Source: Candidatus Sulfopaludibacter sp. SbA3 (GTDB lineage: Bacteria > Acidobacteriota > Terriglobia > Bryobacterales > Bryobacteraceae). Taken from it: a stretch of DNA of 64,000 nt. How positions within the stretch are numbered: position 1 is the stretch's first letter; every line of letters starts with the position of its first letter. The translations under genes and the position numbers were made by a program. Below the pieces are notes generated by a model, which worked only from the letters and a program-made list of their open reading frames with translations, ran no database searches and had not been told where the DNA came from. The stretch is taken from contig CAMDED010000004.1 in assembly GCA_945893365.1 (NCBI GenBank), forward strand, positions 1 through 64,000, given 5' to 3'. Shown here piece by piece: positions 16,079 to 47,705 of the stretch.

Positions 16079-16256
16079 ATGATCCTGTGCGCGAATGGCC
16101 ACCAGATGCCGCCCGGCGTCATGCGCGAAAATTATGTTAACACCAGCATACCCGATCTGCCGCGGAATCCTGAGGACAGGGTGGCGCCGCTGCCAAGGTA
16201 TTGGTATAAAGGACGCAAGGAAGATATCAAACCTCGATGAGAAAGCGCAGGTACGC

Positions 16257-19200
16257 ATGAGCCAAATGAGGCGAGCGGCGATGCTCGGTTGTCTCTTTGT
16301 TCTTGCCGGCAGCCCACAACAGCCGACGCCTGGCCCGAAGGCGCCAACGGCCGTGCCGGCTGTGGCTCCGCGAAAGGTTCCAACCGTCGACTTTCAACGA
16401 GAGATCCGGCCGATCCTCTCCGACAATTGCTTTTTCTGTCATGGACCCGACAAGGCGACTCGGCTGATGGATCTCCGCCTGGACACGAAGGAAGGCGCTT
16501 TCGCCGCTCGTAAGTCCGGCTCACCGGTGGTACCCGGCGATCCGGCCGCGAGCCTCCTCTATCAAAGGATCAACGCCGCCGACAAAGGGCGTCTGATGCC
16601 GCCCGTCCATTCCAAGAAAGTTCTAACGGATGCGCAAAAAGACCTGCTCAAGCGCTGGATCGAGCAAGGCGCCCCTTGGCAGGAGCAGTGGGCGTTCACG
16701 GCGCCGGTCCGGCGGCCCTTACCCGCCGTGCAGAACATCCGGTGGCCGCGCAACCCGATTGACCGGTTCGTGCTGGCGCGCCTCGAAGCCGCCGGATTGC
16801 AACCCGCCCCGGAAGCCAACCGCCGCGCGCTCGCCAGGCGTCTCTCCCTGGATCTGACCGGGCTGCCGCCTGAACCGGAGGCCGTCGAGGCCTTCGTAAA
16901 CAACAAATCCCCTCAGGCTTACGAGAATTACGTCGACCACCTGCTCGAATCAAGACAGTGGGGCGAGCATCGCGGGCGCTATTGGCTGGACGCGGCGCGA
17001 TACGCCGACACCCACGGAATTCATATCGACAACTATCGCGAAATGTGGCCGTATCGCGACTGGGTGATCAACGCATTCAACCGCAACCTCCCCTATGACC
17101 GGTTCGTCGTCGAGCAGATTGCGGGCGACCTGATCCCGAACCGGACCGCGGAACAGCAGATCGCTACCGGATTTCACCGCTGCAATGCGACGACGAATGA
17201 AGGCGGCGCGATCGTGGAAGAAATCGCGGCGATTTACGCGAAGGATCGCGTGGATACAACCGGCTCCGTTTTTCTGGGACTGACGGTCGGCTGCGCCACT
17301 TGTCACGACCACAAGTTCGATCCCATTTCTCAACGCGACTTTTATTCGATGGCTGCGTTCTTCCGCAACACGACGCAGAATCCGATGGACGGCAACATTC
17401 CAGACACGCCGCCCATCGTCGTCGTCCCAAACAAGGAAGACGTGGAGCGATGGAATGAGATTCCGGGCGAAGAGACGAGACTGAATGGACGGTTGAAAGA
17501 CACGCGAGCCGAGGCGGAGACCGAGTTCGTCAAGTGGCTGGATGGTAAGGATCGCGCCTCAGCCGAGTCTCCTCTGGAACCGGCCGATGAACTTCTGGCA
17601 GTCACGGTGAGCGGTGGTACGCCGCGATTCGCGGTGAAGGGGAGTCCCGCCGCGGTGACGCTGCCGGAAACGGTCGCGATCGGTGAGGGACACATCAAAG
17701 GGCGGAAGGCGCTACGGTTTTCCGGGAAGGGCTTGCTCGAACTGCCGTCCATCGATGCGATCGAAGCCGGCCGCCCGTTCTCCGTCGCCACCTGGTTCTA
17801 CATGCCCGAAGGCGAGGACAATTTCGTAGTCGCCGGCCAGACGGACCGGAACAGCAAGGGCCGGGGCTGGGTATTCGAGATCACCGCGCGTATTCCGATG
17901 CTGCGCATTACCGGGCTCGCCGGCCGCAGTCTGGTGCTGCGCGGAAATATCATCGACCGGCTCAAACCCGCCGCCTGGTATCACATCGCGTTCAGCTACG
18001 ATGGCAACCGGTCGTCGTCGGGCTTGCGGCTCTTTCTCAATGGAAAGGAAGCAGCCTCGGAAGGCGGAGGCGAATCGGGCCGGCTGAAGGGTGAAATTCG
18101 CAATTTCTCACCGCTTCTGATCGGTTCCCAAGGAAACCGCTACTTCGATGGAGGCGCTGTCGCCGACCTGCGAATTTACGGAAGAGTTCTTTCACCGGAA
18201 GATGCCGCGCTGCTCGCGCAATGGCCCGCGCTTGAGCTCGCGCGCCGCAAGAAGACCTCCGAGTTGACAAGCGAAGAACGCGAGGGGTTCCGCGGCTATT
18301 ATCTGAACCGCGAATCCTCCGAGTACATGGAACTGGCGGGGCAGATGCAGGCTTTGTACGCGGAAAAGCTGGCCATCGGCCGCCGCGGCGCGGTGACCCA
18401 CGTACAGCATGAGAAGAATGGCAGCGCGACCGCGAATGTGCTCTTCCGTGGAATGTACGATCAGCCGCGCGACAAAGTGGCGGCGAACACGCCTTCCGTT
18501 CTTCCGCCGATGTCCTCCTCTCTGCCGCGCAACCGCATGGGACTGGCCCAGTGGCTGGTCGATCCAAGCCATCCGCTTACCGCGCGCGTAGCCGTGAACC
18601 GTTTCTGGCAGGAGCTGTTCGGAACCGGGATTGTCAAGACCGCCGACGACTTCGGTTCCCAGGGAGAAGCGCCATCGCATCCCGAACTTCTCGATTGGCT
18701 CGCGGTCGAGTTTCGCGAGAGCGGCTGGGATATGAAGAAGTTCTACAAGCTGCTGGCGACCTCGGCCACATATCGGCAAGCCGCGGTGACGACTCCGCTG
18801 AAACTCGAGAAGGATCCCGAGAACCGGCTCCTCTCGCGCGGGCCGCGCTTCCGCATGGATGCGGAGATGGTCCGCGACTATGCGCTCGCGGCGAGCGGAT
18901 TGTTGACGCCCACCATCGGCGGGCCTTCCGTGAAACCTTATCAGCCGGACGGACTCTGGGAAACCGTCGCCATGCCCGGTTCGAACACCCGCTTTTATGC
19001 TCGCGATTCGGGCGGCAATTTGTACCGGCGCTCGCTCTACTCGTTCTGGAAGCGGAGCGCTCCACCGGCGTCGATGGATATCCTGAACGCGCCCACGCGT
19101 GAGAACTGCACGGTTCGCCGCGAACGCACCAACACGCCGCTGCAGGCTCTGGTGACGATGAACGACGTACAGTTCGTAGAGGCGGCCCGGCACTTGGCCG

Positions 19201-19478
19201 AACGGGCGTTACTCGCCGCTCCGGGCGATGCCGCGAAGCAGATGGAGTTCATTTCCGCGCACCTGGTGGCCCGGCCGCTCGATGAGCGCGAGCGGCTGAT
19301 CACCCGCAAGGCCTATCAGGACTATCTGCGTTTTTACGATACCAGGCCGGATGAAGCACGCAAACTGATCGCGCAAGGGGATTCGAAACCGGATTCTTCG
19401 CTATCCGCGCCTGAACTCGCGGCGATGACCATGGTCGCCAACCAGCTTATGAACCTCGATGAGGTTCTCGTCAAATAG
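16257..19478 (+). CDS. PSD1 protein: c-type cytochrome, DUF1549, LamG and DUF1553
   Basis: The product of about 1,073 residues has an N-terminal lipoprotein or Sec-type signal ([11 protein letters not shown]). A planctomycete-type cytochrome segment with CFFCHG follows, then DUF1549 ([20 protein letters not shown]), a second heme-like CATCH, and a LamG-like domain in the middle ([13 protein letters not shown]). The C-terminal DUF1553 contains [20 protein letters not shown]. The start at 16257 was chosen because the upstream extension overlaps the divergent gene. The DUF1501 gene begins 11 bases downstream, the standard partner. Confidence 0.87.
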
Positions 19479-19489
19479 GAGCAGCCCTC

Positions 19490-20971
19490 ATGCAACCATT
19501 CAGCCTCGATCCCATTGCCGACTCGATCTTAGCCGAGACCCGCCGCCAGTTCTTTTCACGAGGCGCCCGCGGGCTCGGAATCGGGGCGCTGGCTAGCCTG
19601 ATCGGCGATGACCTGAAGGCCTCCCCTGCGAGGATTGAAGGCACTGGCGGCTTACCCGGCTTGCCCCACTTTGCCCCCACCGCCAAGAGCGCCATCTATC
19701 TGCACCTGGTCGGTGCGCCGCCGCAGATGGACCTGTTCGACTACAAGCCGGGGATGAAGGATTGGTACGACAAGGATCTTCCCGAATCGATCCGCCGCGG
19801 CCAGCGCCTCACAACAATGACCTCGGGCCAGAGCCGCTTCCCGATTGCGCCTTCCATTTTCAAGTTCAACCAGTACGGACAATCCGGCGCGTGGCTATCG
19901 GAACTGCTGCCGTGGACCGCAAAGATGGCGGACGACATCGCCATCATCCGCACGATGAACACGGAGGCGATCAATCACGAGCCGGCCATTACCTTCATTC
20001 AAACCGGTCAGCAGGTCGCCGGCCGGCCGTGCGTCGGATCGTGGATAGCGTATGGTTTGGGCTCGATGAATCAGGATCTGCCGTCGTTCGTGGTACTCAA
20101 CGCCTCTCACTCCCATCCTAAAGCCGGTGTGCAGGCGATCTCGGCCAAGTTATGGAGCTCCGGTTTCCTTTCGGCGAAGTACGCCGGTGTGGCGCTCCGC
20201 TCCGGCAAGGATCCGGTACTGTTCATCAAGAATCCGGAGGGGGTTCCGCCAGAGATGCGGCGTCGCATGCTCGATGCGCTCGGCGAGCTGAATCAGGTGC
20301 AGCACGAAAAGTCGGGTGATCCCGAGACTCGGGCGCGCATCGCGCAGTATGAAATGGCGTTCCGCATGCAGTCGTCAGTCCCGGAGTTAACCGATCTCTC
20401 GAAGGAGCCTGAAAGCGTATTCAATAGTTACGGGGAAGATTCGCGCAAAGGCGGGACCTTCGCGAACTCCTGCCTGATGGCGCGGCGGCTGGTCGAACGC
20501 GGGGTGCGTTTTGTACAGCTCTACCAGCGCGGCTGGGACGTGCACAGAGACCTTCCCGACGTGCTGCCGTCGCAGTGCAAAGACGTCGATCAGGCCTGCT
20601 ACGCTCTGGTTCAGGATTTGAAATCCCGCGGCATGCTGAAGGACACGCTCGTCATTTTCGGCGGCGAGTTCGGCCGCACAATCTATTCGCAGGGCAAGCT
20701 GACTCCCACCGACTACGGCCGCGATCATCACCCCAGGTGCTTCTCGGTGTGGGCCGCGGGCGGCGGCGTCAAAGGTGGCGTCGTGCATGGCGAGACCGAC
20801 GAGTTCTCGTATAACATCGTGCGCGACCCTGTCCACGTCCGCGATTTCCAGGCCACGATCATGCACTGCTTCGGTATCGATCACGAGCGCTTCGTGTATA
20901 AGCATCAAGGCCTCGCCGCACGCCTGACGGGAGTCGAGCAGGCTAATGCGGTGAAGGCGATTCTGGCTTAG
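19490..20971 (+). CDS. DUF1501 protein (Tat-exported)
   Basis: The 493-residue protein has a Tat-like [20 protein letters not shown] signal, then the DUF1501 sulfatase-like fold: [65 protein letters not shown] and [13 protein letters not shown]. The His and Asp residues in these motifs match the metal-binding layout of the alkaline phosphatase superfamily, though the catalytic nucleophile is uncertain. It follows the PSD1 gene by 11 bases, so the two are probably co-transcribed. Confidence 0.88.
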
Positions 20972-21008: not shown

Positions 21009-21626
21009 TCACTCCGTCTCCCTTGTGTGCTTCAGTCGCGACGACAATTCAGGTGTCAGCGTCCTCGCGACATCGGGCGTGATGAGGCCGGCGGCGTCCA
21101 TATTGCGAACATGAACCCGATCCTTGTCCCGATACGAAGTGAGTTTCATCCGAATCAGATCCACAACGGGAATCACCATCACTTCCTTGCCCTGGATAAG
21201 TTTTCTTTCAGGATCGATAGGCGGAGCAGGGGCCGGATAGTGCGGGAGAGCCTTCTCGTCGCTGAAGATCAAGTGGACTGCATTCCTGGTGGACTCGGTA
21301 TCGCCGTAGATCAACATATCGACTCCGCCGGCATGGCGAAACCGGAATCCATGTTTTACGGCGTTCCGCCTGATCCGCTCGAAATCTGAACGGCGCACCA
21401 TGATGTTAACGTCTCGCGTCAGGATGGAGTGTTCGGGATTCGCTTCTTCCACGTGAATCAATACTGCAAGTCCACTAATCACTTGATAGGGAATGAGTTC
21501 GGCTGTCAGGGTATCCGCAATCTTATGCAAAATCCCAACCATGTCGAATAAGCGTTCTTCGAACAATGTGTTTACCGCTTCCCCTCGATTCGCCGCATCC
21601 ACGAGGAACTGCTCAAAAGTAAACAT
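21009..21626 (-). CDS. Nucleotidyltransferase-fold protein (AbiEii-like), active site altered
   Basis: The 205-residue protein resembles AbiEii/MNT-type nucleotidyltransferase-fold proteins: ISGLAVLIHVEE followed by LTRDVNIMVRRSDFERI. The usual metal-binding Asp-x-Asp appears as Asp-Val-Asn, so catalysis may be lost. There is no AbiEi antitoxin or similar partner beside it. It lies 51 bases after the PPC-protein gene on the same strand and may be the last gene of that operon or independent. No ribosome site is evident. Confidence 0.5.
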   Translation of the reverse strand: MFTFEQFLVDAANRGEAVNTLFEERLFDMVGILHKIADTLTAELIPYQVISGLAVLIHVEEANPEHSILTRDVNIMVRRSDFERIRRNAVKHGFRFRHAGGVDMLIYGDTESTRNAVHLIFSDEKALPHYPAPAPPIDPERKLIQGKEVMVIPVVDLIRMKLTSYRDKDRVHVRNMDAAGLITPDVARTLTPELSSRLKHTRETE

Positions 21627-21677: not shown

Positions 21678-23786
21678 CTAAGGCTTGAGCCCCGCACTCA
21701 GATCCTGAGGCTTGATCGTCAAGCGAAACGGCGCCGCCGATCGCGTCACGAACACGCGGTTGTAGGCAATCTGCCCGATTACCGTCATCAGATAGTTCTC
21801 GAGCGGCGGCGCGTCGGGCTGCGCGCGCAAGGTCACCCGTCCCTGCGTCTCGTCCTTGCCAAGCGCAGTCTTGCTCTGCTTCTCGTCGAACACAATACCC
21901 TTCGGCAGCTTGCTGAACTCCTGCGTCAGAATCCACGAAATCACGTTGAGATCGAGCGGTCCCGTGTATTGATTCCGCGTCACGTTTACGTCTATCGTCA
22001 CCGATTCGCCGGGACGCAGCGTGATCGTCTTCGGAGTCGCTTCGACGATGATGTCGGCCCCATCGGTCACCGCGGCCACCACGGAATTTACTGGCAAAAG
22101 GGTCTTTCCATTAACGGACCCCATGGGGGCGTGCGGCCTCGCGATTCGTTCAAGCCCGCCCGACACGCCGCCAATCGAAATCGCTCTCGCATCCGGCTTC
22201 GCGTTGGGCGATGCCGTGAGCACGATGTTGCCTTGGTCCAGGTGCGGCGGGATGAAGCTTTCCATTACGGTTACGCCGTTCGGCAGCCCGCGCGCAAACA
22301 GCTTCACCGCGCCCGTGAATCCGTTTCTGCGATCCACCGTGACCACCGCCGTGGCCGATTCTCCCGGCCCCATGGGCAGCCGGTCGTCATCGACTATCAA
22401 AGTGAAATCGGGTTGCTGCGGCTTGGCGGAGAGATGATAGACGTGGTCCGCCGAGCCGAAGAGATTCGCGTCACGGATGCGGACTTCGTAGTCGCCATCG
22501 GCGGGCGCGGTCCACTCCAGGCGCGAGTCTTTGTTCGGCGGGATGGCAAGGTTCGCGGCGAAACGGCCGTCATAGCCAACCGTGTTCGCTTGGTCGTCGT
22601 TCGCCTCGATCAGCCGTCCGGTCGAATCGTGAATCTCGAGCAATGCATCGAGAGCCGATCCAAATTCCCGCGCCCGCACTTCGAACTCCAGCCGTTCGCC
22701 CTGCTTCGCGTGGAAGCGGTAGCGGTCGATTTTGCCGTCCGCATCGATGCGCCCACTGATGCCTACGGGCATCGCGATCGACGCCGGCGTCGCCCGTGCA
22801 GGCTCGACCAACTGCGGCAGGTCACTGATTCCCAGCGTCACCAGGTTCGATGCCCCGCTGGGCGACTTGACCTGGAACTCCAGCTTGCCGCGCGCCCCGG
22901 CGGGAACGTCGATTTCATACGGATCGAGACCTTCCAAATGAAAGCCGTGAAGCTGCAGTTTGGCTTTCGATCCGGCGCGGACAACCGGAGGAAACACGGA
23001 GGTCACCTGCGGTCCGGAGAGCACCGACAACGCGTACCACCAGCGGTCTTTGCCCTGCATGTAGCGCGCTTCCCAGAGGTGCAAGTAATACGTGCCGTCC
23101 TTTTCGAAAGCATGGAAAAGCCGCGGATCTTCTCCCATCCAATCGTCGGCGGCAGCCAGCTCGCGGCCATTCTCATCGCGCAGACTGATGGTAATGTCCG
23201 AGAAGGCCCGCTCGAGAAACGGCACAGCCGCTTGCAGGCGCGCTGCATGGACGACGAAGGTGAGCCGGTCGCCGGCGCGGGCGTGAAACTTGTACACGTC
23301 GGCGTCCGCGTCCTCGTCGATGAGGCCGTTGACGGTCTGCGGAATTTCGATGGTTTGTGCTTGCGCCGCTGCGTTATTCGGCTCAGACTCGTTCACTGAC
23401 GGCGCGTCCGAGATCAGCAGACGGCCCTCGGTCGAAAGGCTGCTCTTGGTGACGATGCGAAACGGCCGAATCCCTGGGATGGCGTCTTCGGCCACAGTGA
23501 TCTTTAGCGTGACGCCTTCTCGCGGGAAGCGGTTTACGCGGGCGTTCTTCGGGACCGGCATCTCCTTCCAGCCGGCGATCGTTCCGGTGACGCCTTCTCC
23601 TTCGAACACGACACCGACCGGGTCGCGAAAGTTGTAGTGGCCGGCGACCAGCACTTCGGTGGTCTTACCGCGGCTAACCGCGCCGGGGTAGACCATTTCG
23701 ATTTGCGGATATCCGCGCTCGGCAAACGCGGGCAGGGCGTTGAGAAAGCCGATCACGATCAAGAGTTCAAGGGTTGTTCGTCGCAT
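21678..23786 (-). CDS. Secreted protein with pre-peptidase C-terminal (PPC-like) domains
   Basis: The 702-residue protein has a signal peptide (LLIVIGFLNALPAFAE). An IPT-like N-terminal beta domain follows (YPQIEMVYPGAVSRGKTTEV). Several PPC-like beta-sandwich domains come next, including NESEPNNAAAQAQTIEIP with an AGDRLTFVVHA strand. The ATG at 23786 has an AGGTGG ribosome site and lies 20 bases inside the WD40 gene, so it is coupled to it. Proteins of this form occur in planctomycete-type PSD1/DUF1501 clusters. The exact role is unknown, probably binding or scaffolding in the envelope. Confidence 0.78.
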   Translation of the reverse strand: MRRTTLELLIVIGFLNALPAFAERGYPQIEMVYPGAVSRGKTTEVLVAGHYNFRDPVGVVFEGEGVTGTIAGWKEMPVPKNARVNRFPREGVTLKITVAEDAIPGIRPFRIVTKSSLSTEGRLLISDAPSVNESEPNNAAAQAQTIEIPQTVNGLIDEDADADVYKFHARAGDRLTFVVHAARLQAAVPFLERAFSDITISLRDENGRELAAADDWMGEDPRLFHAFEKDGTYYLHLWEARYMQGKDRWWYALSVLSGPQVTSVFPPVVRAGSKAKLQLHGFHLEGLDPYEIDVPAGARGKLEFQVKSPSGASNLVTLGISDLPQLVEPARATPASIAMPVGISGRIDADGKIDRYRFHAKQGERLEFEVRAREFGSALDALLEIHDSTGRLIEANDDQANTVGYDGRFAANLAIPPNKDSRLEWTAPADGDYEVRIRDANLFGSADHVYHLSAKPQQPDFTLIVDDDRLPMGPGESATAVVTVDRRNGFTGAVKLFARGLPNGVTVMESFIPPHLDQGNIVLTASPNAKPDARAISIGGVSGGLERIARPHAPMGSVNGKTLLPVNSVVAAVTDGADIIVEATPKTITLRPGESVTIDVNVTRNQYTGPLDLNVISWILTQEFSKLPKGIVFDEKQSKTALGKDETQGRVTLRAQPDAPPLENYLMTVIGQIAYNRVFVTRSAAPFRLTIKPQDLSAGLKP

Positions 23787-25440
23787 GTTCCACCTTCGAC
23801 GCGCTTCGGGGCTGTCCCATGTTTAGTAAAATTGCGTTCAATCCGCTCGATGCGGCATACCGGCCGCCCGGTTCCACCGCCAACCACTCGCTCGATTTTT
23901 TCGGTTCGAGTGGATTCCGCGCCATCTGTTTCTGGATCAGCACCAGCCGAAGCGCGCCCGTCTTCGCGTCCCACACGCGAGTCAAGCCATCGCCGCCAGC
24001 CGCCGCGATCTGCTTCGAATCCGGCGCGAACGCTACGCCATACTGCAGATCGTCCGCGTCGATCAAGGTGCGCAGAGGCCGCCCCGTCGAGCCGTCCCAC
24101 AAACGCACGGAGTGGTCCGCTCCCGCGGTCGCGAGCATGGTTCCGTCGGGACTGAAACGCAGGTCGTAAACCGGAGCGGTGTGGCCCGGCAACTTGCGCA
24201 TCGGAATCCAGCCGCGCTCGCTGACGCTGTCGCCGATACTGGTCACGTCCCACCAGCGGATCTCGGGCGACTCCCCGGACGTTACGAGAAATTTGCCATC
24301 GGGACTGAAGGCCAGCGTCAGTATGGCTCTTAGCTCGGGGTTGATGGTTAGAAAGCCCTTGCCGCTCACGGCGTCGGATAGCTTTACGATTCGGTCCATG
24401 CCGCCGGTGGCGAGCGTCTTGCCCTGCCTGTCGAACGCCACGCACTGCACGGTGTCGGAGTGGTCCTGAATGGACGCGATCCGCTTGCGGTCGGCGATAT
24501 CCCAGATCTCGACCGTCTTATCGAAGCTCACCGTGGCCAGGCGCTTCGAGTCCGGGCTGAACGCCTGGTTGAGGATCACCTCTTTGTGCGCCGCGAGTGT
24601 GGCCACCGGTTTCAAGCCCGCGTGCGCGTCGTAGAGACGAATCTCGCCTGGGGAGAAGGGCTTTCCGCCAGCCACGGAAAGCAGCTTTCCGTCGGGACTG
24701 AATAAAAGGCTGTTTACGCCGCCCGCCATGTCGTCCAATTCGCGAACCACGCTCTTCCGCGCCAGATCCCATTCGACCACGCGGCCGAACGCTCCCACGA
24801 GCAGCGAGCCGCCGTCCGGAGTGAACGCCACGGCAGTGACCGGAGCGAGCGGGCCAATCTTCAACGTTAGCCCTTGCGAGTACTTTTGCACGGCGATTTT
24901 TTCCGTGCGCGCGTCCTCATCGACGACGATGGCGCCGGGGATGTCGAGGATCGTGGTCTTCTCCTTGCGGTCGAGCGCTGGAGTGGATTCAATGGGTTTT
25001 CGGCTGCCGAACGGGATGAAGACATTGGTGGGCTTCACGGCGATGCGGACGCCAGGCGCGGCGGGCGCATCGGGCAGCAATGGCCGATCGCCTTCCTTCG
25101 CGCCCTCGCTGATCCACTGCCGCACCGTCGCAACGGTCTCCGGCGAAAGAGGGGTCCCGCCTCTCGGCATGCGGATCGCGGGATCGGAGGATTCCAAGCG
25201 CCGCGCCAGTTCGCTTTCGCCCGGATTACCCGGCGCCACCACGGGTTTCTTCGAGCCACGCACTACAGCATCGTAGGAGTCGAGAGCCAATCCGCCCGAG
25301 ACCGCGGGTTTATCGGTGACGCCGTGGTTGTGGCAGCCGGTACAGTGCTGCTCGAGGATGGGGCGGATGTGTTTAACGAATTGCAACGGCTCGGCAGCCG
25401 CGAGGAGCGGCCAGGCAACGAGGATGAGCCTCCGGCTCAT
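23767..25440 (-). CDS. Planctomycete-type cytochrome plus seven-bladed WD40 protein
   Basis: The 557-residue protein has a short signal, then a PSCyt1-type segment with HCTGCHNHG (CxxCH heme site) and a capping motif around IRMPRGGTPLSP. About seven WD40 blades follow, recognisable by SPDGK-type turns and WD-type endings (VEIWD, VRLWDG, TRVWDA). Its ATG overlaps the DUF1501 stop as ATGA. The architecture suggests an exported electron-transfer or redox protein on a beta-propeller scaffold; this is inference. Confidence 0.85.
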   Translation of the reverse strand: MSRRLILVAWPLLAAAEPLQFVKHIRPILEQHCTGCHNHGVTDKPAVSGGLALDSYDAVVRGSKKPVVAPGNPGESELARRLESSDPAIRMPRGGTPLSPETVATVRQWISEGAKEGDRPLLPDAPAAPGVRIAVKPTNVFIPFGSRKPIESTPALDRKEKTTILDIPGAIVVDEDARTEKIAVQKYSQGLTLKIGPLAPVTAVAFTPDGGSLLVGAFGRVVEWDLARKSVVRELDDMAGGVNSLLFSPDGKLLSVAGGKPFSPGEIRLYDAHAGLKPVATLAAHKEVILNQAFSPDSKRLATVSFDKTVEIWDIADRKRIASIQDHSDTVQCVAFDRQGKTLATGGMDRIVKLSDAVSGKGFLTINPELRAILTLAFSPDGKFLVTSGESPEIRWWDVTSIGDSVSERGWIPMRKLPGHTAPVYDLRFSPDGTMLATAGADHSVRLWDGSTGRPLRTLIDADDLQYGVAFAPDSKQIAAAGGDGLTRVWDAKTGALRLVLIQKQMARNPLEPKKSSEWLAVEPGGRYAASSGLNAILLNMGQPRSASKVEHATNNP

Positions 25441-26765
25441 GCCAGCAACTCGGCAATCGGCTCGCCCCCCTTCACAACCGTGATCGGGCGATTCTCCGGG
25501 GTCCGGTACTCCTCGACCAAAGGGATGCCCAACGCTTGCAGCGTCGTCGCGCAGAGGTCCTGCACGGACACCGGACGCTCGGTCGGATACTCAGACCGCT
25601 GATTTGTTTCGCCGATCACGAGGCCGGTCTTGATGCCGCCGCCGCCGATCCCGAACGCCTGGGTCGCGGGCCAGTGATCGCGGCCGGCTTCCGAATTGAT
25701 CTTCGGCGTACGGCCGAATTCGCCGATGCAGATCACCATGGTCGAGTCCATCATGCCGCGGTCGGCGAGATCCGTCAGCAGCGCCGAGTAGGCCATGTCC
25801 AGAACCGGCAGCAGCTTGTCCTTCAAGTCGTTAAAGTTGTCGCGATGCGTGTCCCATCCAGGCATGCCAACGGTTACATAGCGCACTCCCGCTTCAACCA
25901 GGCGACGCGCCATCAGACAGCTCTGGCCGAACATGGTGCGCCCGTAGGCGTCTCTCAGCTTATCCGGCTCTCCGCCCAGATCGAAGGCCTTCTTCGCCAC
26001 AGGCGAGGTCACAAGCGCATAGGCCTTTTCGTAATAGGCATCCACCTCCGCCACGCGTTCCGCTTTCGCATCGACGTTCCGCTGCCACGTGTCAAGCATG
26101 GACAGCATATGCCGGCGATTGTTCAGGCGTTCGAGATCCACCTCTTTGGCGAGCGTGACGTCCTTGACGCTGAAGCCCGGATCGTTCGCTTTGTCGCCGA
26201 TCTCGAGCGGATTGTGCTCCGCGCCGAGCACTCCCGCATTCAACGCGTCGCGCTTGCGGGCGAAGCTCGGGCCCTGCACGTCGCCGATGAACACGTAGGG
26301 AGGGACGCCGTTGCGATAGCCGGTCTTCCAGCTCACGATCGAACCCTGCGACGGGTAGCGGACGCCCGCGCCCGAAGGCGAAGGTGGATAGCCGGTGTTC
26401 ACCAGTTGGTCGGCGAGCCCGTGCGATCCCTGATTGTGGGTCATCGAGCGGACCAGCGTAAACTTCGAAGTCATGCGGGCGAGCCGCGGCAGATGCTCGA
26501 CGAAGTGGATGCCCGGCGTGGTGGTGGGGATGGTTTTGAACTCGCCGCGCACCTCGGCGGGAGCGTCCGGCTTCGGATCGAAGCTGTCCATCTGGCTGAG
26601 CCCACCGCTTAGCCATAAGAGGATGCAAGAGGTTTCCTTTTTTTGGCCGGCGCGCAGCAGGTGCGGCAGGTTCAGTCCGAACAGCCCGAGCGAGCCGATG
26701 CGGAGGTATTCGCGGCGGCTGACGCCGTCGCATTTGCGATGGGTAATGGTGGGGATATCGATCAT
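25437..26765 (-). CDS. DUF1501 protein (Tat-exported)
   Basis: The 442-residue protein has a Tat-like SRREYLRIGSLGLFGLNL segment followed by [49 protein letters not shown] and GRDHWPATQAFGIGGGGIK, the standard DUF1501 landmarks. It starts 9 bases after the PSD1 stop and overlaps the WD40 gene by 4 bases, so it sits in the middle of one transcription unit. Confidence 0.88.
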   Translation of the reverse strand: MIDIPTITHRKCDGVSRREYLRIGSLGLFGLNLPHLLRAGQKKETSCILLWLSGGLSQMDSFDPKPDAPAEVRGEFKTIPTTTPGIHFVEHLPRLARMTSKFTLVRSMTHNQGSHGLADQLVNTGYPPSPSGAGVRYPSQGSIVSWKTGYRNGVPPYVFIGDVQGPSFARKRDALNAGVLGAEHNPLEIGDKANDPGFSVKDVTLAKEVDLERLNNRRHMLSMLDTWQRNVDAKAERVAEVDAYYEKAYALVTSPVAKKAFDLGGEPDKLRDAYGRTMFGQSCLMARRLVEAGVRYVTVGMPGWDTHRDNFNDLKDKLLPVLDMAYSALLTDLADRGMMDSTMVICIGEFGRTPKINSEAGRDHWPATQAFGIGGGGIKTGLVIGETNQRSEYPTERPVSVQDLCATTLQALGIPLVEEYRTPENRPITVVKGGEPIAELLA

Positions 26766-26774
26766 ATTGCGTAC

Positions 26775-28907
26775 TCAGTGATTAAAAATAAACTCCCGCG
26801 AGTTGAGCAGGACCCACATCAAGTCTTCTAAAACCTTCTTTCTCGACACTTCCGATTCACGGGCGTTCACGAAGTTCATGGCTTTTTGAAGCTCGGCATC
26901 GGAAGGAGCGCGGCTTAAGGTCGCATAGTAGAGGTTCGATACGATCTGCGGCGGCGGCACCAGAGGAAGCAGCGTGGCAATCCGGCCCGCCGGTGACGAG
27001 AGCTTCTCCTGCAAATAATCTCCGTTAATCAAGTGTAGCGCCTGCGTAATGTTACTCTCGTCGCTGCGCGAGCATTCGCAGGGTACCTGGCGCTTCGAGC
27101 GGCCGAATGTATCCAGGAAGTAAGACGGCACTTCGGGGTCGGGAAGCTCCATGGCGCGGGTGCCCTTGGGGAGGCCGCCGAACTTGTCCGGCACGTTGGT
27201 GGCGACGGCAATGGCTTCGAGCAACTGCTCGGCGGTCAGGCGGCGGGGACTGTAGTAGGCGTAAAAAGTGCTGTCCCGCGGACCTCCCGGCGGAGGTTCG
27301 GAATCCAGTTGATAGACGCGCGAGCTGAAGATGCGGCGCAACAGATGCTTCTGATCGAAACCGTGATCGCGGAAGTCGCGGACGAGTGCGTCGAGCAGAT
27401 CGGGTATCGACGGCGGATTGGTGTCGCGGATGTCGTCGAGCGGTTCGATTAAACCGCGTCCCATCGAATATCCCCAAAAGCGGTTCACGAAGTTGCGCGC
27501 GAGCCAGGGGTTGTCCTTGGACGTGAGCCAATCGGCCAGCTTGACGCGCGGATCGCCATCGTAATCGTAACTGCCGCCATCGGGAACGGAGGGCTGCACC
27601 ACCTGCATGGTCTTGGGATGGCGCACGAACCCTGTGGGGCGGATGCGCAGGGTGTTCGCGCCATAGTCGGAGTCCGGCTTCGAATCGATGCGGGCGAAGA
27701 AGGCCGCCAAGCCGTAGTAGTCCGACTGTCCCCATTTTTCAAACGGATGCTGATGGCATTTGGCGCAGCCGATGCGGAGCCCCATGAACGTGACGCTCAC
27801 GGTTTCGGCGGCATCCTCGGGAGTGCGCGACATGCGGAAGAAGGCCGACACTTCCTGGTTATTCGGCTGACCGCGTCCGAGGAGCACTTCGTGCGTCATC
27901 CGGTCGACCGGGCGATTCTGCTCCAGATTGCGCCGCAGCCAGCGCTGGAAGTTCCACATCGCCTTGTCGCCCATGCCGGCGCGGGTGACGCGCAGCAGGT
28001 CGCCCCAGCGGATGGTCCAGAAGTCGGCGTACTCCGGACGTTCGAGGAGGCGGTCGATGAGACGCGCCCGCTTGTCCTTGGAGGGGTCGGCGGCGAATTC
28101 CCGGATCTCCTGTTCCTTCGGAAGAACGCCGATCAAATCCAGATGAACGCGCCGCAAAAACTGCGTGTCGGTCGAGAGCTTTGCCGGACGCAAGCCGAGC
28201 TGCTTCCACTTGGCGGCGACCAGTTCATCGATATAGTTGTTGGGGGTAAATTCCGGGAAACTGGTGGCCTTCGCGTACGGCACGAGCAGGTTCACGACAG
28301 CCGTCTTTCCCATGTACCGGGCGAGCACCGCGCCTGCGCCTCCGGACTTGGCCGTCACAAGGCCGTCACCTGAAACCTCGGCGACGGAGTCATTCAGAAC
28401 TTCCATCCGCGAGAGCGCGGTGACGTCGCGGGTGCTGCCGTCATTGAAGCGCGCCACGACCTTCATCTGCAGCTTCCCATTCGTTTGCATCACGGTCGAG
28501 CCGGGCGACGCTTCGACGGCGGCGAGCAGCGGATCCTGCAACGTAGGAGGAGGCGCGCCGGCGGCTATCCACGATAGCAGCAGATTGTAAGTTGGTGAAT
28601 CGGCCGCGAAGCGCCGGCCGCCGCCATGTGGAATGGAGAGCGAGGGCTTGCGTAAGATCAGGCTTTGGGTAAGGTCGTCAAGATTGAGACGCCTCCCCTT
28701 CAAGTCTTTGGCAATCGCCTCGTAGTCGGCGTCCACATCGAAGCCCAGCAAGGATAGTTTGAAGCCGCCCTTGCCGAATTGGGAGCCATGACACGCCCCG
28801 GAATTACACCCCAGCTTGGTCAGCGCCGGAATGACGCCGTTGCGAAAGCCGGGCGCTTCCTCCGCCGAGGCCACGGCCGCGGCGAGCACGATCCAGATAA
28901 GCAGCAT
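26775..28907 (-). CDS. PSD1-type protein with DUF1549 and DUF1553 and a bacterial Ig-like domain
   Basis: The 710-residue protein has a signal peptide and the GCNSGACHGS segment typical of this subfamily. An Ig-like (BIG2-type) region follows (RFNDGSTRDVTALSRMEVL). DUF1549 comes next (FTPNNYIDELVAAKWKQLGL), then a second CAKCHQHPFEKW heme-like site and DUF1553 (ITQALHLINGDYLQEKL). It begins 6 bases after the Oar-receptor stop, which strongly suggests co-transcription with it. It is a standard partner of DUF1501. Confidence 0.87.
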   Translation of the reverse strand: MLLIWIVLAAAVASAEEAPGFRNGVIPALTKLGCNSGACHGSQFGKGGFKLSLLGFDVDADYEAIAKDLKGRRLNLDDLTQSLILRKPSLSIPHGGGRRFAADSPTYNLLLSWIAAGAPPPTLQDPLLAAVEASPGSTVMQTNGKLQMKVVARFNDGSTRDVTALSRMEVLNDSVAEVSGDGLVTAKSGGAGAVLARYMGKTAVVNLLVPYAKATSFPEFTPNNYIDELVAAKWKQLGLRPAKLSTDTQFLRRVHLDLIGVLPKEQEIREFAADPSKDKRARLIDRLLERPEYADFWTIRWGDLLRVTRAGMGDKAMWNFQRWLRRNLEQNRPVDRMTHEVLLGRGQPNNQEVSAFFRMSRTPEDAAETVSVTFMGLRIGCAKCHQHPFEKWGQSDYYGLAAFFARIDSKPDSDYGANTLRIRPTGFVRHPKTMQVVQPSVPDGGSYDYDGDPRVKLADWLTSKDNPWLARNFVNRFWGYSMGRGLIEPLDDIRDTNPPSIPDLLDALVRDFRDHGFDQKHLLRRIFSSRVYQLDSEPPPGGPRDSTFYAYYSPRRLTAEQLLEAIAVATNVPDKFGGLPKGTRAMELPDPEVPSYFLDTFGRSKRQVPCECSRSDESNITQALHLINGDYLQEKLSSPAGRIATLLPLVPPPQIVSNLYYATLSRAPSDAELQKAMNFVNARESEVSRKKVLEDLMWVLLNSREFIFNH

Positions 28908-28913
28908 GCCACC

Positions 28914-31900
28914 TCAGAATTCGATTTTCAGCGCCGCCTGCACGTTCCTCGGTGGATTTATCGTACCACTTACCGACCCAAAACTTCCGCTCGCGAGATT
29001 CGTATCGGCCCGCCCGAATTGCGGGGTGTTGGTCACGTTGAAGAACTCCCCGCGGAACTGTATTCGCAACCTCTCGCGATAACGGAAGTTCTTCATCAGC
29101 GCGAAGTCCGAATACCGCGCGGTATCGAAGCGCAGGTTCGGAATCCAGCGGGGCGCGCCGCCGATAGTGAAGGGCGCCGGCTGGGTTAGAGCCGTCGTGT
29201 TGAACCACCGTTCCGGCGTTCGAGTGGAGATGTCCAGATCCTTGAGATTGGCGATATTCGGACGCTGCACGTTGAATCCGTACGCAGCGAGTGTGTTTCC
29301 GGTTGTGACTTGAAGCGGTAGCCCAACGTTAAACCTGGTGATGGCGGAGAATTGCCAGCCGCCCAGGACGGCGTCGGCGACGCCCGACATACCGGCGCCG
29401 AATTTCCGCCCCTTGCCTACAGGCAACTCGTAAACCAAGGCCGTGACCCAACTGTGCGGGACATCGTGACCGCTGATGGAACGGTCGGCGCTCAGGTTGT
29501 AGGCGTCGCGGATGGCTTCACTGAGCTCCCAGCCCTGTGTCTCCGATGCATTGTCGATGGCCTTCGACCACTGGTAGCTCGAGAGCAGGCTGAGACCCCC
29601 GGTGAACTGCTTGGTGACCTTTGCCACCAAGGCGTTATAGGAGGCGGAAGCGCCAGGTGTGTCTTCCGGCAGATTCACGGCCACGAATTGCGGATAAGGC
29701 CGCAAGAGGCGGTGCGCGGGAATCGTGGCGCTGGAGAGGACACCCGTCGTGATGACGCCGGCGAACGGGTTCGTCACGGGACGGTCGAGCGCCGCTCCCT
29801 GGCTCAACAACTGCGTAGGCAATTGATTGACGTTGCGGATCGACCCCATGAGCAGTTTGCGGCTCTGGTTGCCCGCATAGCCCACCTCGAGAACGGTGCC
29901 GCGGTTGATCTCGTACTGGATATCGAGGCTGTAGTTCTGGATGTAACCGGTGGGGTGCGCCCGCTGCCAGCCCGTGATGGTCTCCCCGATCAGCGTCTCG
30001 AGACCTCTGGTCCGGCCGACCGGCTGCGTGATGCCCCGTGGGAATGGGTTGCTCAGGCGGTCCTGCGGATTGATGCCGTCGCCGCCGGTGGTGCTCACAA
30101 ACTGCGTAACTGTGGAGAATCCGTCGGCTCCGATGTTAGGACCGCGTCCTACGGTCTGCGGATAAAAGATGCCGTAGCCTGCGCGAGCCACTATTTTATC
30201 GGTGAGCTTCAGGGAGAGGCCGACGCGCGGAGCAAGGTCGGACTTGTCTGTGTCCCAAACACCACGATTATCCGGAGTGACGAAAACCAGCCCGCCTGTG
30301 AGAGGAAGTCCGACTCTCGCGCCAAGCGGATTGGTGGCGCCGAAATCGAAGCTGTTGTAACGGTCGAAACGCTCGGTGCGGCCCTTTTGCACTTCGTAGC
30401 GGATTCCGGCGTTGACAGTGAGCCGTGGGTTGATGCGCCAGGCATCCTGCACGTAGCCGGCGTAGTACATCTGGTTCGAGGCCCCGCGCATGGTGATCGG
30501 CGCGATGCCGCCGGGCGCTCCGGTGCCGAGCAGGAGCGATGCGATCGAATTACCCGACGTGGAGCTATTGGCGGCGGCAACCGGCCCGGACGTCATGCCG
30601 CGGTTGAAGGGGAAATCCGCCGAGCGGGAGTCGGTGGAATTCAGGTGGGCGGACTCGGCGGCGAACCCGAATTTGATGCTATGGGCTCCTCTTTCCTTGG
30701 TCACGTTGACCTGAAGGTTATGCGTGTCGCGAGGAAAGTCGAGGACGCGGGAATTGCTTATGATGGCGAATCCATCGACGTTGAACTGGGGGATCGTGTT
30801 CGCGTCGAGCTGGCCGACCAGGGAAGAGGCGAAACCGAGCTTGGTCCCGTCCAGGCCAAGGCTGGGCGAGATCTGCACTTCGCGGAAGCGGCCCGTGCCG
30901 ACCAACAGGTTAATGACCCAGGTGGGGGTGGGCAGGAAGGTGTTGCCGATGGTGACATGGTGACGGGGAATCACCGAGCCCGCGCCGTTATCGGCGCCGC
31001 CGCCGAAGTATTTTGGTGAAATCGACTCGAAACGCGTCTTCGTGATGCGCGCATAGATCGAGTGCTTTTCATTACGCGCCCAGTCGACGCGGATGTCCGT
31101 ACGATTCTGTTTCGTCACGGACTTGCCGCTTCCAAAGTAGTTCAATGCGCCGGTGACGGAATTACCCGCCGTGTTGGCGGCCGGATAGAAGTTGGCTGTC
31201 TTCAGACCCACTGGATCGAACAGGTTGTCCGGAATGCGGTTGCCGGGGAAGGGGTCGCGGATGAAGCCCGCACCGCTCGGGTTGGGACGCGTGGTGAACG
31301 GGTTAAATATGGTCGAGAGGCTGCCGTTGGCGTTGAACGTCTGGGAAAAGTCGCCGCGACGCTGCAGTTCCGTGGGCACAGAGTTCAAGTACGGAGCAGG
31401 ACTGCCCTCGCGCACGCCGTCGTAGCCGCCGAAGATGTATAGATTCTTCCTTTTCCAGATCGGTCCCGAGAAGTTTCCGCCAAACTGGCTGCGCTGGAAG
31501 GTGGTCCTCGCCCGGCCGGCGCGATTTTGCGCCCAGGGGTTCGCGTCCAGGTGGTCGTTGCGGAGGAACTCGAAACCCATGCCATGGTATTCGTTTGTGC
31601 CGCCCTTGCTAACCATGCTGACCACGCCGCCGCCGGATTTTCCGAACTGCACGTCGTAGGAGTTGCGCACCACTTGCACTTCGCGAATGGAATCGGTGTT
31701 GGGAACAGCCAGCAGCGCGCTCCAGTCGCCGCTGGTGGCCGGCACGCCGTCGATCAGCATGGCGGCGCTTTCATCGCGGCCGCCGTTGAGGGCGAATCGT
31801 CCGTGACTCGAGTCCTGTACAGACGTCGAGATGCCCGTCCGCACAGATACGGTTCCCGCCATGAGGTGTACCATCACGAACGGGTTGCGGGCGCTGACCG

Positions 31901-32339
31901 GCAGCTCCAGGAACTGTTTCGCCGGCAGGGTCACGGATTGATTGGCCGTTTGGGTGTCGAGGGCTACGGAAGACTCCGCGACCTCGACGGTCTGGGTGAC
32001 TTCGCCCAACTGCATCGCGATGTTCAACTCGGCCGACTGGTTCGAGGCGAGCGCGACACCACGCAGAGCGGTTATCTTAAAGCCGGTGAATTCTCCGGTG
32101 ACGTCGTAGGTGCCAGGCAACAGTTGCGAAAACGTGTAGCGGCCTTCGCTTCCACTCGTCGTCTGGCGGCTGTCGTTGGTTGCGATATTTTTGATTCTTA
32201 CGGTGACTCCAGGCATCACCGCTTGATTCGGGTCGGTCACGAGTCCGGTAAGATTTGCCGTGAATGACTGCCCGAAGCAGGTTCCAGAGCCGGCCAGCAA
32301 GACCATGGCAGCCCACAGGTACGGTCGAGTCGTTTTCAT
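28914..32339 (-). CDS. Oar-like TonB-dependent receptor with carboxypeptidase-regulatory domain
   Basis: The product of about 1,141 residues has a signal peptide and an N-terminal carboxypeptidase-regulatory-like domain (NLTGLVTDPNQAVMPGVTV). A plug domain follows (IREVQVVRNSYDVQFGKSGG) and a long beta-barrel ends in NPPRNVQAALKIEF. Such Oar-like receptors are expanded in acidobacteria and presumably import glycans or peptides across the outer membrane. The ATG at 32339 has a strong GGAGGTG site and is preferred over an ATG 36 bases upstream. It is the first gene of the minus-strand unit. Confidence 0.88.
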   Translation of the reverse strand: MKTTRPYLWAAMVLLAGSGTCFGQSFTANLTGLVTDPNQAVMPGVTVRIKNIATNDSRQTTSGSEGRYTFSQLLPGTYDVTGEFTGFKITALRGVALASNQSAELNIAMQLGEVTQTVEVAESSVALDTQTANQSVTLPAKQFLELPVSARNPFVMVHLMAGTVSVRTGISTSVQDSSHGRFALNGGRDESAAMLIDGVPATSGDWSALLAVPNTDSIREVQVVRNSYDVQFGKSGGGVVSMVSKGGTNEYHGMGFEFLRNDHLDANPWAQNRAGRARTTFQRSQFGGNFSGPIWKRKNLYIFGGYDGVREGSPAPYLNSVPTELQRRGDFSQTFNANGSLSTIFNPFTTRPNPSGAGFIRDPFPGNRIPDNLFDPVGLKTANFYPAANTAGNSVTGALNYFGSGKSVTKQNRTDIRVDWARNEKHSIYARITKTRFESISPKYFGGGADNGAGSVIPRHHVTIGNTFLPTPTWVINLLVGTGRFREVQISPSLGLDGTKLGFASSLVGQLDANTIPQFNVDGFAIISNSRVLDFPRDTHNLQVNVTKERGAHSIKFGFAAESAHLNSTDSRSADFPFNRGMTSGPVAAANSSTSGNSIASLLLGTGAPGGIAPITMRGASNQMYYAGYVQDAWRINPRLTVNAGIRYEVQKGRTERFDRYNSFDFGATNPLGARVGLPLTGGLVFVTPDNRGVWDTDKSDLAPRVGLSLKLTDKIVARAGYGIFYPQTVGRGPNIGADGFSTVTQFVSTTGGDGINPQDRLSNPFPRGITQPVGRTRGLETLIGETITGWQRAHPTGYIQNYSLDIQYEINRGTVLEVGYAGNQSRKLLMGSIRNVNQLPTQLLSQGAALDRPVTNPFAGVITTGVLSSATIPAHRLLRPYPQFVAVNLPEDTPGASASYNALVAKVTKQFTGGLSLLSSYQWSKAIDNASETQGWELSEAIRDAYNLSADRSISGHDVPHSWVTALVYELPVGKGRKFGAGMSGVADAVLGGWQFSAITRFNVGLPLQVTTGNTLAAYGFNVQRPNIANLKDLDISTRTPERWFNTTALTQPAPFTIGGAPRWIPNLRFDTARYSDFALMKNFRYRERLRIQFRGEFFNVTNTPQFGRADTNLASGSFGSVSGTINPPRNVQAALKIEF

Positions 32340-33082: not shown

Positions 33083-36000
33083 TTATCGAGATACCGATAC
33101 CAATTGAATCCGGTTCAAGTAGCTCTCGAGCTGCGACAGCCCATCCCGGAGCAGTTGGATATCAGCCACAGTGGCCGATTGCTCGAGCGTTGCCCCGATT
33201 TGGGACAAGCCGGGGAATCCGTAGGTTCCGCCGCTACCCTTCAGATTGTGCGCGAGAATTCTCAGGCGTTCGAAATCCGAAACGGCGAGCAGATGGAGCA
33301 TGTCCGGCAGGTCTTGCTTCCGCTCTGCCAAATACTCCGGGAGCAAATCCTCCAGGTCCTCCGGTACGTCGATTACGATTGGATCGATGGCGCCCGGTGG
33401 AGGGCCGGCCCACTCGCAGTAAAGCTGGCCGTGTTCTTCGATCGCAGCCAGGAGCCGTTGTTTGGTAATGGGCTTCGTCAGATGGCCATCGCATCCCGCC
33501 GCGAGGCTCTTCGCGATATCCCCGGAACGCGCGTTGGCTGTGAGCGCAACAATCGGAGTCGCCGGCAGACCGAGTTCCCGTTCCCTCGCCCGTATCATTG
33601 CCGTCGCCGTCAGTCCATCCATCACGGGCATCTGAACATCCATGAGGATCAGATCGAAACGCGCCGCGGCGAACTCGTCTACGGCTTTCTGTCCGTCCTC
33701 GGCAAAAGTGACGGCATGAGGGCTATTTTTCAAAAACGCCTGGACCACGAGCCGGTTGTTCGGTGAATCCTCCGCCACAAGTATCCGCAACGGCTTCTGT
33801 TCCCGTAGCGGCGCAATATTGAAGCGCCGGGAATCCGGAATAGGCGCCGCGCCGGCACTGAGCTGCCCATTCAAGGCGCAGGAAACCAGCCGAAATAGTT
33901 CAGTTCGCTTCACCGGTTTCAAGGCGTAACCGGCGAGAGACAATTCCTGCCGCCGCACGAGATCTTCCGGCCGTGAGTCCGACGTCAGCATGATAACGGG
34001 CAGGTCCGGGGAGATTTCCCGGATTCGGGACGCCACCGTGAAACCGTCCATGCCCGGCATGCATTTGTCGACGATAACGAGTGAATAGGGCCGCTCATCG
34101 CGAATCGATTCGGAGATTTCGGAAAGGCAAGCGGCGGGCGCGGCGCTTTCCCGCGTCTCCAGTCCCCACGCGCCGAGAGCCTCGCACACGATAAGACGGT
34201 TGGTTGCGTTATCGTCAAGCACCAACACGCGCCGTCCTTCAAAGTCTTGAACTTCGCCAGCGGGCAACGAAACGCTTTTCGGCGGCGCCAAGTCGAACAG
34301 GGGAGCGAAGGTGAAGATACTGCCCTGCCCCACCGTACTGGTAACTGTCAGTGCGCCTCCCATCAACTCTACGATCCGGCGGCTAATGCTGAGTCCCAGA
34401 CCCGACCCCCCGTACTGCCTTGTCGTCGATGAATCGGCCTGTGTAAAGTTGTCGAAGATTGAATCGACCTTCTCGGCCGGGATACCAATGCCGGTGTCGC
34501 TAATAGAGAACTCGATCCGCCGGGGGTCGCCGGACACGTGGTTCCGAACCGTAAGCACGATCTCGCCGGTGTCCGTGAACTTGACTGCGTTGCCCAGGAG
34601 ATTGATGAGGACCTGCCGGAGCCGTGTAGGGTCGCCAGCGACCGCCGTCCCGATCCCCGGCGAGATCCGGGACATCAGGAGGATCCCTTTTTCCCTCGCC
34701 TTCGCGCTGGCGAGCTCGACGGCTTGATCCACCACTTCTTCGATATTGAACCCGACCTGTTCAAGTTCGAAGTGGCCGGCCTCGATTTTCGACAGATCCA
34801 GAATGTCGTTGATGAGCGATAGGAGGTTGGACCCGGCCCGGCGGAATACATCGACATAATGTTGCTGTTCGGCATTGAGGTCCGACTCCCACAGCAATTC
34901 CGCCATCCCAAGGATCGCGTTCATAGGTGTCCGGATTTCATGGCTCATCGTCGCCAGAAAATCGCTTTTTGCCCGGCTGGCTTCCTCTGCCCGCCGGGTC
35001 TGCTCGGCCAATCTGTCGTTATTCAGGCGCAACTCCCGCTCGAGGGTCTTGCGAGCCGTGATATCGGTGGCAATGCCGAGAAATCCCTCGATCGCCCCAT
35101 CCGGACTGCGAACCGCGGTGACAATGAGCGTGACGTCCAGCGCGCTGCCGTCCTTCCGGATGTAGGTCCATGGCCTTTCGTCGAACCTTCTATGGCGGGC
35201 ATGTTCCGTGAAAACGTCGAAGCCCTCGACCAGGCGCCCGAACTCGAGCGAAAGCTCCTCGGAACGCCGACGGCATTCCGCCGGATCGTGAAGGATCTCC
35301 GGCGTCCGTCGCGCCACCATTTCGTCCGCCCGATACAGCAGCATCCTTTCAGCGCCGGCGTTGAATACTTCGATCGTACCCTGCGTATCCGTGGCTATGA
35401 TGGATACCTGCGTGGCGGCATCCAATATGCTCTGAAGTTTACTCTGGGTGTGCGCCAGCTCCTGATTGGCGTCCGCCAGCTCAGCCGTGCGCTGCCGGAC
35501 ACGCTCTTCCAAGGTTTCATTCAGGCCCTTTACGGCTGCTTCCGCCTGCTTGTAGTCCTCGATATCGGTTCCCGTTCCGAACCATCGGACAATCTCGCCC
35601 GTGGCGCCGCGAATAGGTACCGCCCTTCCCAGGTGCCAACGATAGGACCCGTCGGAAGCCCGCTTGAACCGGTATTCGATCTCGTACGGCTCGCCGCTGG
35701 TAACCGCTTTCGTCCATCGCTGAATGCAGTTTTCCACATCGTCCGGGTGCAACACGGGCTGCCATCCCGAGTCCTGTATTTGCTTAAACGTCCGGCCTGT
35801 ATAGTCATACCAGCGCTGGTTGTAGTAATCCCGGTTGCCGTCGGGCGTTGCGGTCCAAACGAACTGCGGAAGCGCATCGGCAAGGTGGAGAATCTGTTTC
35901 TCGCTTTGATGTAACGCGAGCTCGGCTTCCTTGCGGCCGGTGATGTCCAGATTAATGCCTTCGAGCCGCAGCGGGCCGCCGTCCTCGTTGCGGGTGATGC

Positions 36001-47175: not shown

Positions 47176-47256
47176 GTGGCGGACGCTTCCTGCTGCTCGC
47201 CGTCGAGCCGGATGTCCCTCCCCGGGTAGGGCAGGGCGCGCGACCACTCACCCGCA

Positions 47257-47640
47257 TTACGCGAATAGCGCCTTCACTGCTTCGCCATGCACGCCGGTGA
47301 GCCGTACCTGGCGGCCGCCGGATGGAAATGTCAGCCGTTTACGGTCGAGGCCCAGCAGATGCAGCGCAGTCGCGTGCAGATCGTGCACCGTCACCTTGCT
47401 CTCGACCGCATGGTAGCCGTACTCATCGGTTGCGCCGTAGACCGTGCCGCCCTTGACGCCGCTACCGGCAAGCCACATCGAGAAACCGTAAGGATGATGA
47501 TCGCGCCCCGGCTCCCGGCCTCGCCTTCAAGTCTTTCAACAGCCCTGCAATCGGCTTGTCCGTCGCTTTCGCGGTCGCCGCGTGCCCGCCCTTCAGCTTC
47601 GCGTGCCGGTCCCAGCGATCGTGCTTAGTCCGCGGAGGGG
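47257..47640 (-). pseudogene. Truncated DUF1501 remnant with internal deletion
   Basis: The minus strand encodes the DUF1501 C-terminus: [15 protein letters not shown] with [17 protein letters not shown], then [20 protein letters not shown]. Upstream there is [18 protein letters not shown] and [15 protein letters not shown], but the intervening segment (usually about 20 residues including FGGEFGRTP) is missing and the frame shifts. The 5' two-thirds is gone. It lies between the propeller kinase and the sulfatase. The 5' boundary is approximate. Confidence 0.75.
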
Positions 47641-47705
47641 AAAGGATGTTCAGGCAGGTGAATGAGTCTTTCCAGTGCTACAATTCGTTTTCGAGCGGAG
47701 GACGC

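Follow-up and report, generated by a model that had tools for sequence, protein, structure and literature searches.

Does an outer-membrane receptor gene, together with the genes for exported cytochrome-like and sulfatase-fold proteins directly behind it, form a single nutrient-processing system, as a preliminary description of this locus had suggested? The genes in question occupy positions 21678–32339 of a 64,000-nucleotide stretch of DNA from Candidatus Sulfopaludibacter sp. SbA3 (Acidobacteriota; assembly GCA_945893365.1, contig CAMDED010000004.1, positions 1–64,000), referred to here as the window. They encode an Oar-type TonB-dependent receptor, a PSCyt2-PSD1 protein, a DUF1501 protein, a protein that combines a PSCyt1 cytochrome domain with WD40 repeats and a PPC-domain protein. 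On balance, we favour reading them as a mosaic operon, composed of a conserved cassette of four genes for an exported haem redox system and, in front of it, an exchangeable Oar-type receptor gene.

The five-gene unit

Open reading frame (ORF) coordinates and Pfam matches confirm the layout described earlier, with all five genes on the minus strand. At the head of the unit is Oar (28914–32339, the mechanical ORF extending to 32375), in which CarboxypepD_reg (66.5 bits, cut-off 32.3) and the OMP_b-brl_4 barrel (693.1 bits, cut-off 30) make up the domain combination of an Oar-type TonB-dependent receptor; a match to Plug (23.1 bits) falls slightly below its cut-off of 23.9. Following it are the genes for the exported PSCyt2-PSD1 protein (26775–28907), the DUF1501 protein (25437–26765), the PSCyt1-WD40 protein (23767–25440, assigned by Pfam PSCyt1 and WD40 matches) and the PPC-domain protein (21678–23786; 35.1 bits, cut-off 25.9). 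The reported spacing was also borne out: 6 and 9 bases separate the first three genes, and the later ones overlap by 4 and 20 bases. From this tight spacing and the conservation of the 4-base overlap, a one-transcript operon is predicted. Terminator-like sites are fewer than expected from shuffled sequences (7 observed, 12.2 expected), and one located at the end of the PSD1 gene (26818–26794) is poor evidence for an internal stop, because it lies inside codons for a conserved protein motif.

Conserved cassette and exchangeable receptor

Close relatives of the cassette, taken as loci whose PSD1 protein is at least 65% identical to that of the window, number six including the window itself, the others being a second locus in the window's own genome (L061), L062, L063, L064 and L103 (the same locus as L101). 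They are the sole loci at E 1e-200 or better among the 257 genomes of the order, and are spread over five of these genomes, the window's own holding two. All six retain the order PSD1–DUF1501–WD40-cytochrome–PPC, and in all six the 4-base overlap between the DUF1501 and WD40 genes can be read, from coordinates or, for L061, the mechanical ORF of which is over-long, from the translation. The check for conserved gene order called for in the preliminary description thus came out positive, with the identical five-gene order found at L061, in the same genome, and at L103.

Three of the six loci (the window, L061 and L103) have an Oar gene in front of the cassette; at the others, L062–L064, its place is taken by a divergent gene. 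L061 and L103 have Oar proteins with 87% identity to one another and 24–25% identity to that of the window; the other four proteins share 53–73% identity between the window and these two loci. As judged from these comparisons, the window's Oar is of a different Oar family from those of L061 and L103, and the four genes that follow Oar are kept together as a cassette, the Oar gene itself being exchangeable.

Two Oar proteins, one encoded on contig C79 of this genome and the other in a second genome from the genus, are each 63% identical to that of the window. Relatives at 16 loci were fetched and compared (43–63% identity), and at the four closest (L253, L254, L255 and L267, from the window's own genome, the same genus and G005) a TPR gene lies directly after Oar. 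At the DNA level, similarity to the locus of the C79 Oar stops at 28966 and similarity to the L061 and L103 cassettes starts at 28856; this switch (28856–28966, minus strand) therefore marks the operon as a mosaic, joined at the gap between Oar and PSD1.

The CX4CH class of PSD1

The first protein of the cassette belongs to the PSCyt2-PSD1 family by both of its Pfam domains (PF07583, 176.6 bits, cut-off 29.8; PF07587, 150.2 bits, cut-off 28.5). Preceding these is a CX4CH motif (residues 34–40; 28788–28808, minus strand), and inside PSCyt2 is a CXXCHxHP motif (residues 381–388; 27744–27767), both of which are invariant in the class alignment (38/38 rows). The two motifs were the search patterns for the wider loci, so the invariance of CX4CH is partly imposed there; the motif was also seen in proteins of the class outside the pattern-based search. 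Position 94 (28626–28628) is His in 38/38 rows, and residue 92, in the column usually held by Met, is Met in one of the 38. In alignments with PSCyt1-type profiles, CX4CH falls over CXXCH and His94 lies two residues past the usual Met column, and we infer that this candidate second ligand is likely to be the sixth ligand of a haem.

Pfam finds no PSCyt1 domain (PF07635) in the N-terminal region, where the motif is CX4CH and not CXXCH. A profile built from 107 CX4CH N termini matched PSCyt1-type profiles with 98.0% and 98.2% probability, compared with at most 1.2% in a column-shuffle control (20 shuffles). The N terminus is therefore treated here as a diverged relative of PSCyt1 and not filed as a member.

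In the structure model (pLDDT 87), residues 125–211 form a Big_2-like domain. The clear matches of the PSD1 profile to solved structures are Ig/Big_2-type domains, and the matches listed in the fold search of the model also concern this domain, the helical PSCyt2 and PSD1 parts being barely probed by that search. At the level of sequence, the invariant CX4CH, CXXCHxHP and His94 set this PSD1 apart as a member of a distinct class, which we refer to as the CX4CH class.

The DUF1501 protein

The next protein matches DUF1501 (PF07394, 335.4 bits, cut-off 27) and has a twin-Arg N terminus, of which both Arg are invariant. Its model (33 rows, pLDDT 82) adopts the fold of the alkaline-phosphatase/sulfatase superfamily, as seen in comparison with ENPP6 (Z-score of 20.5 and r.m.s.d. 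of 2.9 over 247 aligned residues), and sulfatases stand at the top of its Foldseek list. The earlier label 'sulfatase-fold' is thus correct as to fold; the sulfatase catalytic residues are not conserved. In a global profile alignment with nine sulfatases, the catalytic Cys corresponds to His115 (26421–26423, minus strand), the Asp-Asp pair to Gly54-Gly55 and Asp-His to Glu349-Phe350, so that neither the Cys/Ser nucleophile nor the Asp-Asp metal pair of active sulfatases is found. The nucleophile position is assigned from this global alignment and from identical spacing to the next Thr/Ser-Gly, local alignments (with two and with nine sulfatases) having been confined to the C-terminal third of the protein. 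Invariant in 33/33 rows are Gly54, His115, Asp305, His307 and His364, and another metal or acid-base site is therefore possible.

The WD40-cytochrome and PPC proteins

Fused to the WD40 repeats is a PSCyt1 domain (PF07635, 36.2 bits, cut-off 22) with a CXXCH motif (residues 33–37; 25330–25344, minus strand). With the CX4CH and CXXCH of PSD1 this makes three haem-type motifs in two proteins, both of which carry signal-like N termini. For the profiles of the PPC and DUF1501 proteins no match below E 0.04 was found among solved structures, and an NCBIfam search of the proteins gave none above cut-off. A match of the PPC protein to quinohaemoprotein amine dehydrogenase domain III (23.2 bits, cut-off 22) was set aside as too weak.

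The 7.9-Mb draft genome contains many copies of these families (73 PSD1 matches, 87 DUF1501 matches, and numerous Oar genes), and claims about neighbourhoods therefore need controls. Neighbourhood statistics cover its 71 distinct PSD1 genes, 10 of the CX4CH class and 61 others. A PPC gene lies beside 9/10 genes of the CX4CH class and 0/61 of the others (Fisher p 1.3e-10), and a WD40-cytochrome gene beside 4/10 and 0/61, respectively (p 2e-4). DUF1501 adjoins all classes (9/10 and 57/61).

In other genomes, the PSD1 profile alone was used to find wider loci, of which the best 80 of 581 confirmed candidates were analysed. Within the PSD1 run, DUF1501 was detected at 37 loci, PPC at 40 and the WD40-cytochrome at 34, with one or more partners in 61 and three in 14; these counts are lower bounds, because loci are truncated by early contig ends and ORFs that overlap were discarded (L103, for example, is counted for DUF1501 alone, though the locus has all partners). 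Planctomycetota, Acidobacteriota, Verrucomicrobia and Hydrogenedentota have related clusters in which the genes are permuted, and a locus from Armatimonadetes (L177) has DUF1501 alone.

Relation to known systems

In the passages of earlier work considered here, PSCyt and PSD genes with constant neighbours are described in Verrucomicrobia, where a role with sugars is suggested and the functions of PSCyt genes are stated to be wholly unknown (He et al. 2017, PMC5615132). For R. baltica, 41 copies of each domain are given and a redox suggestion is cited (PMC2754498); DUF1501 genes are noted as adjoining WD40 genes in Planctomycetes (PMC5587647), and PMC4452313 and PMC4960237 cite a study of a DUF1501 module in PVC bacteria (Kamneva et al. 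2012). The families go unmentioned in main-text passages of Challacombe et al. 2011 (PMC3174227), and our searches of open-licence literature turned up no description of the CX4CH class, of its link to PPC or of the exchange of receptors.

Like the planctomycete-specific cytochrome pairs reported in passages on Planctomycetota and Verrucomicrobia (PSCyt1-PSCyt2-PSD1 with DUF1501; PMC5615132, PMC2754498), the cassette has PSCyt2-PSD1 beside DUF1501, many copies per genome and exported products. It differs from them in having CX4CH and His94 in place of CXXCH and Met, and in its tie to PPC and WD40-cytochrome genes, which are absent beside the 61 other PSD1 genes here. The DUF1501 module of PVC bacteria, as portrayed in the citing papers, is similarly a DUF1501-centred cluster with signal peptides. 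Genomes can be crowded with PSD1 and DUF1501 genes; the class split, the defined partners and a testable haem variant provide an experimental starting point, and loci that differ by receptor exchange at one junction offer natural comparisons for working out the receptor's contribution.

Proposed role and alternatives

In a mosaic operon of this kind, Oar would import or sense a compound at the outer membrane, and the periplasmic PSD1 protein would oxidise or otherwise redox-process it, with DUF1501 and PPC possibly serving as binding or scaffold partners that bind or present the substrate. Electrons would leave through the haem at CX4CH, which probably has a His ligand, and through the cytochrome linked to WD40, to reach the respiratory chain. 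A receptor swap would then alter the input and leave the redox core unchanged, which suggests that the cassette is a reusable oxidation module. Of the single nutrient-processing system first proposed, the co-oriented, packed unit of exported haem-type, sulfatase-fold and receptor proteins stands, with Oar found before PSD1 more often than by chance in this genome. The notion of a fixed unit does not, since three of the six closest loci are without Oar and the other three have two unrelated Oar types. A nutrient role is possible, and the flanking genes point to no substrate.

Several observations weigh against a redox cassette behind a swapped receptor. The c-type haem at CX4CH and CXXCH is a prediction from motifs. 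One of the 10 CX4CH-class genes (C5) is without PPC and WD40-cytochrome neighbours, and the contrast between classes is favoured by the PPC and WD40 profiles having been built from CX4CH-class loci. Among the 80 wider runs, 19 have no detected partner and just 14 have three, and their flanking genes give no sign of a common pathway, no Pfam family occurring in more than 3 of the 52 neighbour ORFs scanned (out of 75 unassigned). The 'one good promoter' claimed for the unit also loses its force: a sigma-70-like site (10/12 match) is located before Oar (32437–32408, minus strand), yet such sites occur at chance frequency, with 3 in 13.5 kb against 3.3 expected from shuffles. A broader proposal, according to which the four cassette proteins (the CX4CH/His PSD1, the DUF1501 with its His in the nucleophile column, the WD40-cytochrome and PPC) assemble into a novel type of haem-enzyme complex in the periplasm that would serve as an oxidative utilisation module across several phyla, its input set by receptor swaps, is speculative and, in our estimate, unlikely to hold.

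Could Oar instead have landed before the cassette by chance and be merely read through, with no function shared? Both families are very large in this genome, and none of the 16 fetched relatives of the Oar in the window has a PSD1 gene immediately downstream. A same-strand Oar is nevertheless found at most 300 bases upstream of 9/71 PSD1 genes (3/10 of the CX4CH class and 6/61 of the others), whereas 1.1, 1.4 or 2.1 would be expected at assumed rates of 1.5, 2 or 3%, with binomial probabilities of 1e-6, 1e-5 and 3e-4 (2.7e-4), respectively; these rates are assumptions and the total of about 150 or more Oar genes is an estimate, because just part of the candidates was scored (65 of 193, 150 of 258 and 11 of 217). 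The Oar before the C58 PSD1 gene is split over two ORFs, and the C173 PSD1 gene is a further case, with the order Oar–PPC–PSD1. Elsewhere, Oar lies within the PSD1 run at just 2/80 wider loci. Pairing of Oar with PSD1 is therefore above chance in this genome, but loose. Together with the 87%-identical Oar retained before the cassette in two genomes, and with one of the 16 loci (L256, 1–8990, in another genome of the family), where an Oar 56% identical to that of the window is divergent from an adjacent PPC-PSD1-DUF1501 cluster, this makes chance placement unlikely. Oar genes before PSD1 are split over at least two ORFs at L082 (2527–5782) and L206 (2–3255), and are either decaying or affected by assembly errors.

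In its plan the five-gene unit resembles polysaccharide utilisation loci of the SusC/SusD type, in which genes for exported proteins likewise follow a TonB-type receptor gene in one operon. Were the unit a single uptake system in this style, Oar would import an oligosaccharide, DUF1501 would remove sulfate or phosphate and the cytochromes would carry out oxidation, in keeping with the grouping of a receptor with a sulfatase-fold protein and cytochromes, and with a sulfatase gene about 15 kb away within the window. PSCyt genes elsewhere are also reported near sulfatases and with carbohydrate-binding modules, in passages of PMC5615132. However, Pfam detects no SusD-like or carbohydrate-active enzyme domain in the five proteins, DUF1501 is without the sulfatase nucleophile and Asp pair, and the receptor varies among cassette loci, so that we consider such a system unlikely. 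Still less probable is a structural or surface-assembly cassette, in which PPC, Big_2 and WD40 domains would form an envelope complex and the haem motifs would serve in folding or sensing, not in catalysis. The predominance of Ig-like, PPC and propeller domains, and a DUF1501 active site that appears dead by sulfatase standards, would suit such a complex; the two haem-type motifs, the candidate second ligand and the many charged PSCyt2-PSD1 residues that are invariant over 38 divergent rows argue against it.

Neighbouring genes

Located 51 bases downstream of the PPC gene is an ORF (21009–21626, minus strand) without a Pfam match (E 0.001), resembling a nucleotidyltransferase by eye; it is perhaps co-transcribed with PPC, but is no member of the cassette. 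Convergent with the cassette is a canonical pair of genes (16095–20971, plus strand) for a PSCyt1-PSCyt2-PSD1 protein with Laminin_G_3 and a DUF1501 protein, with neither PPC nor WD40-cytochrome. About 700 bases upstream of Oar is the gene for a large hybrid histidine kinase (33083–37819, minus strand) with PAS, two receiver and Hpt domains. At 43105–49145 (plus strand), a two-component system of the one-protein Reg_prop/Y_Y_Y type precedes a sulfatase gene, an arrangement of a kind known in polysaccharide use. Broken DUF1501 remnants lie near this sulfatase gene (47263–47626, minus strand) and at 52738–53983 (minus strand, in two frames), the latter just upstream of another Oar gene (49281–52700).

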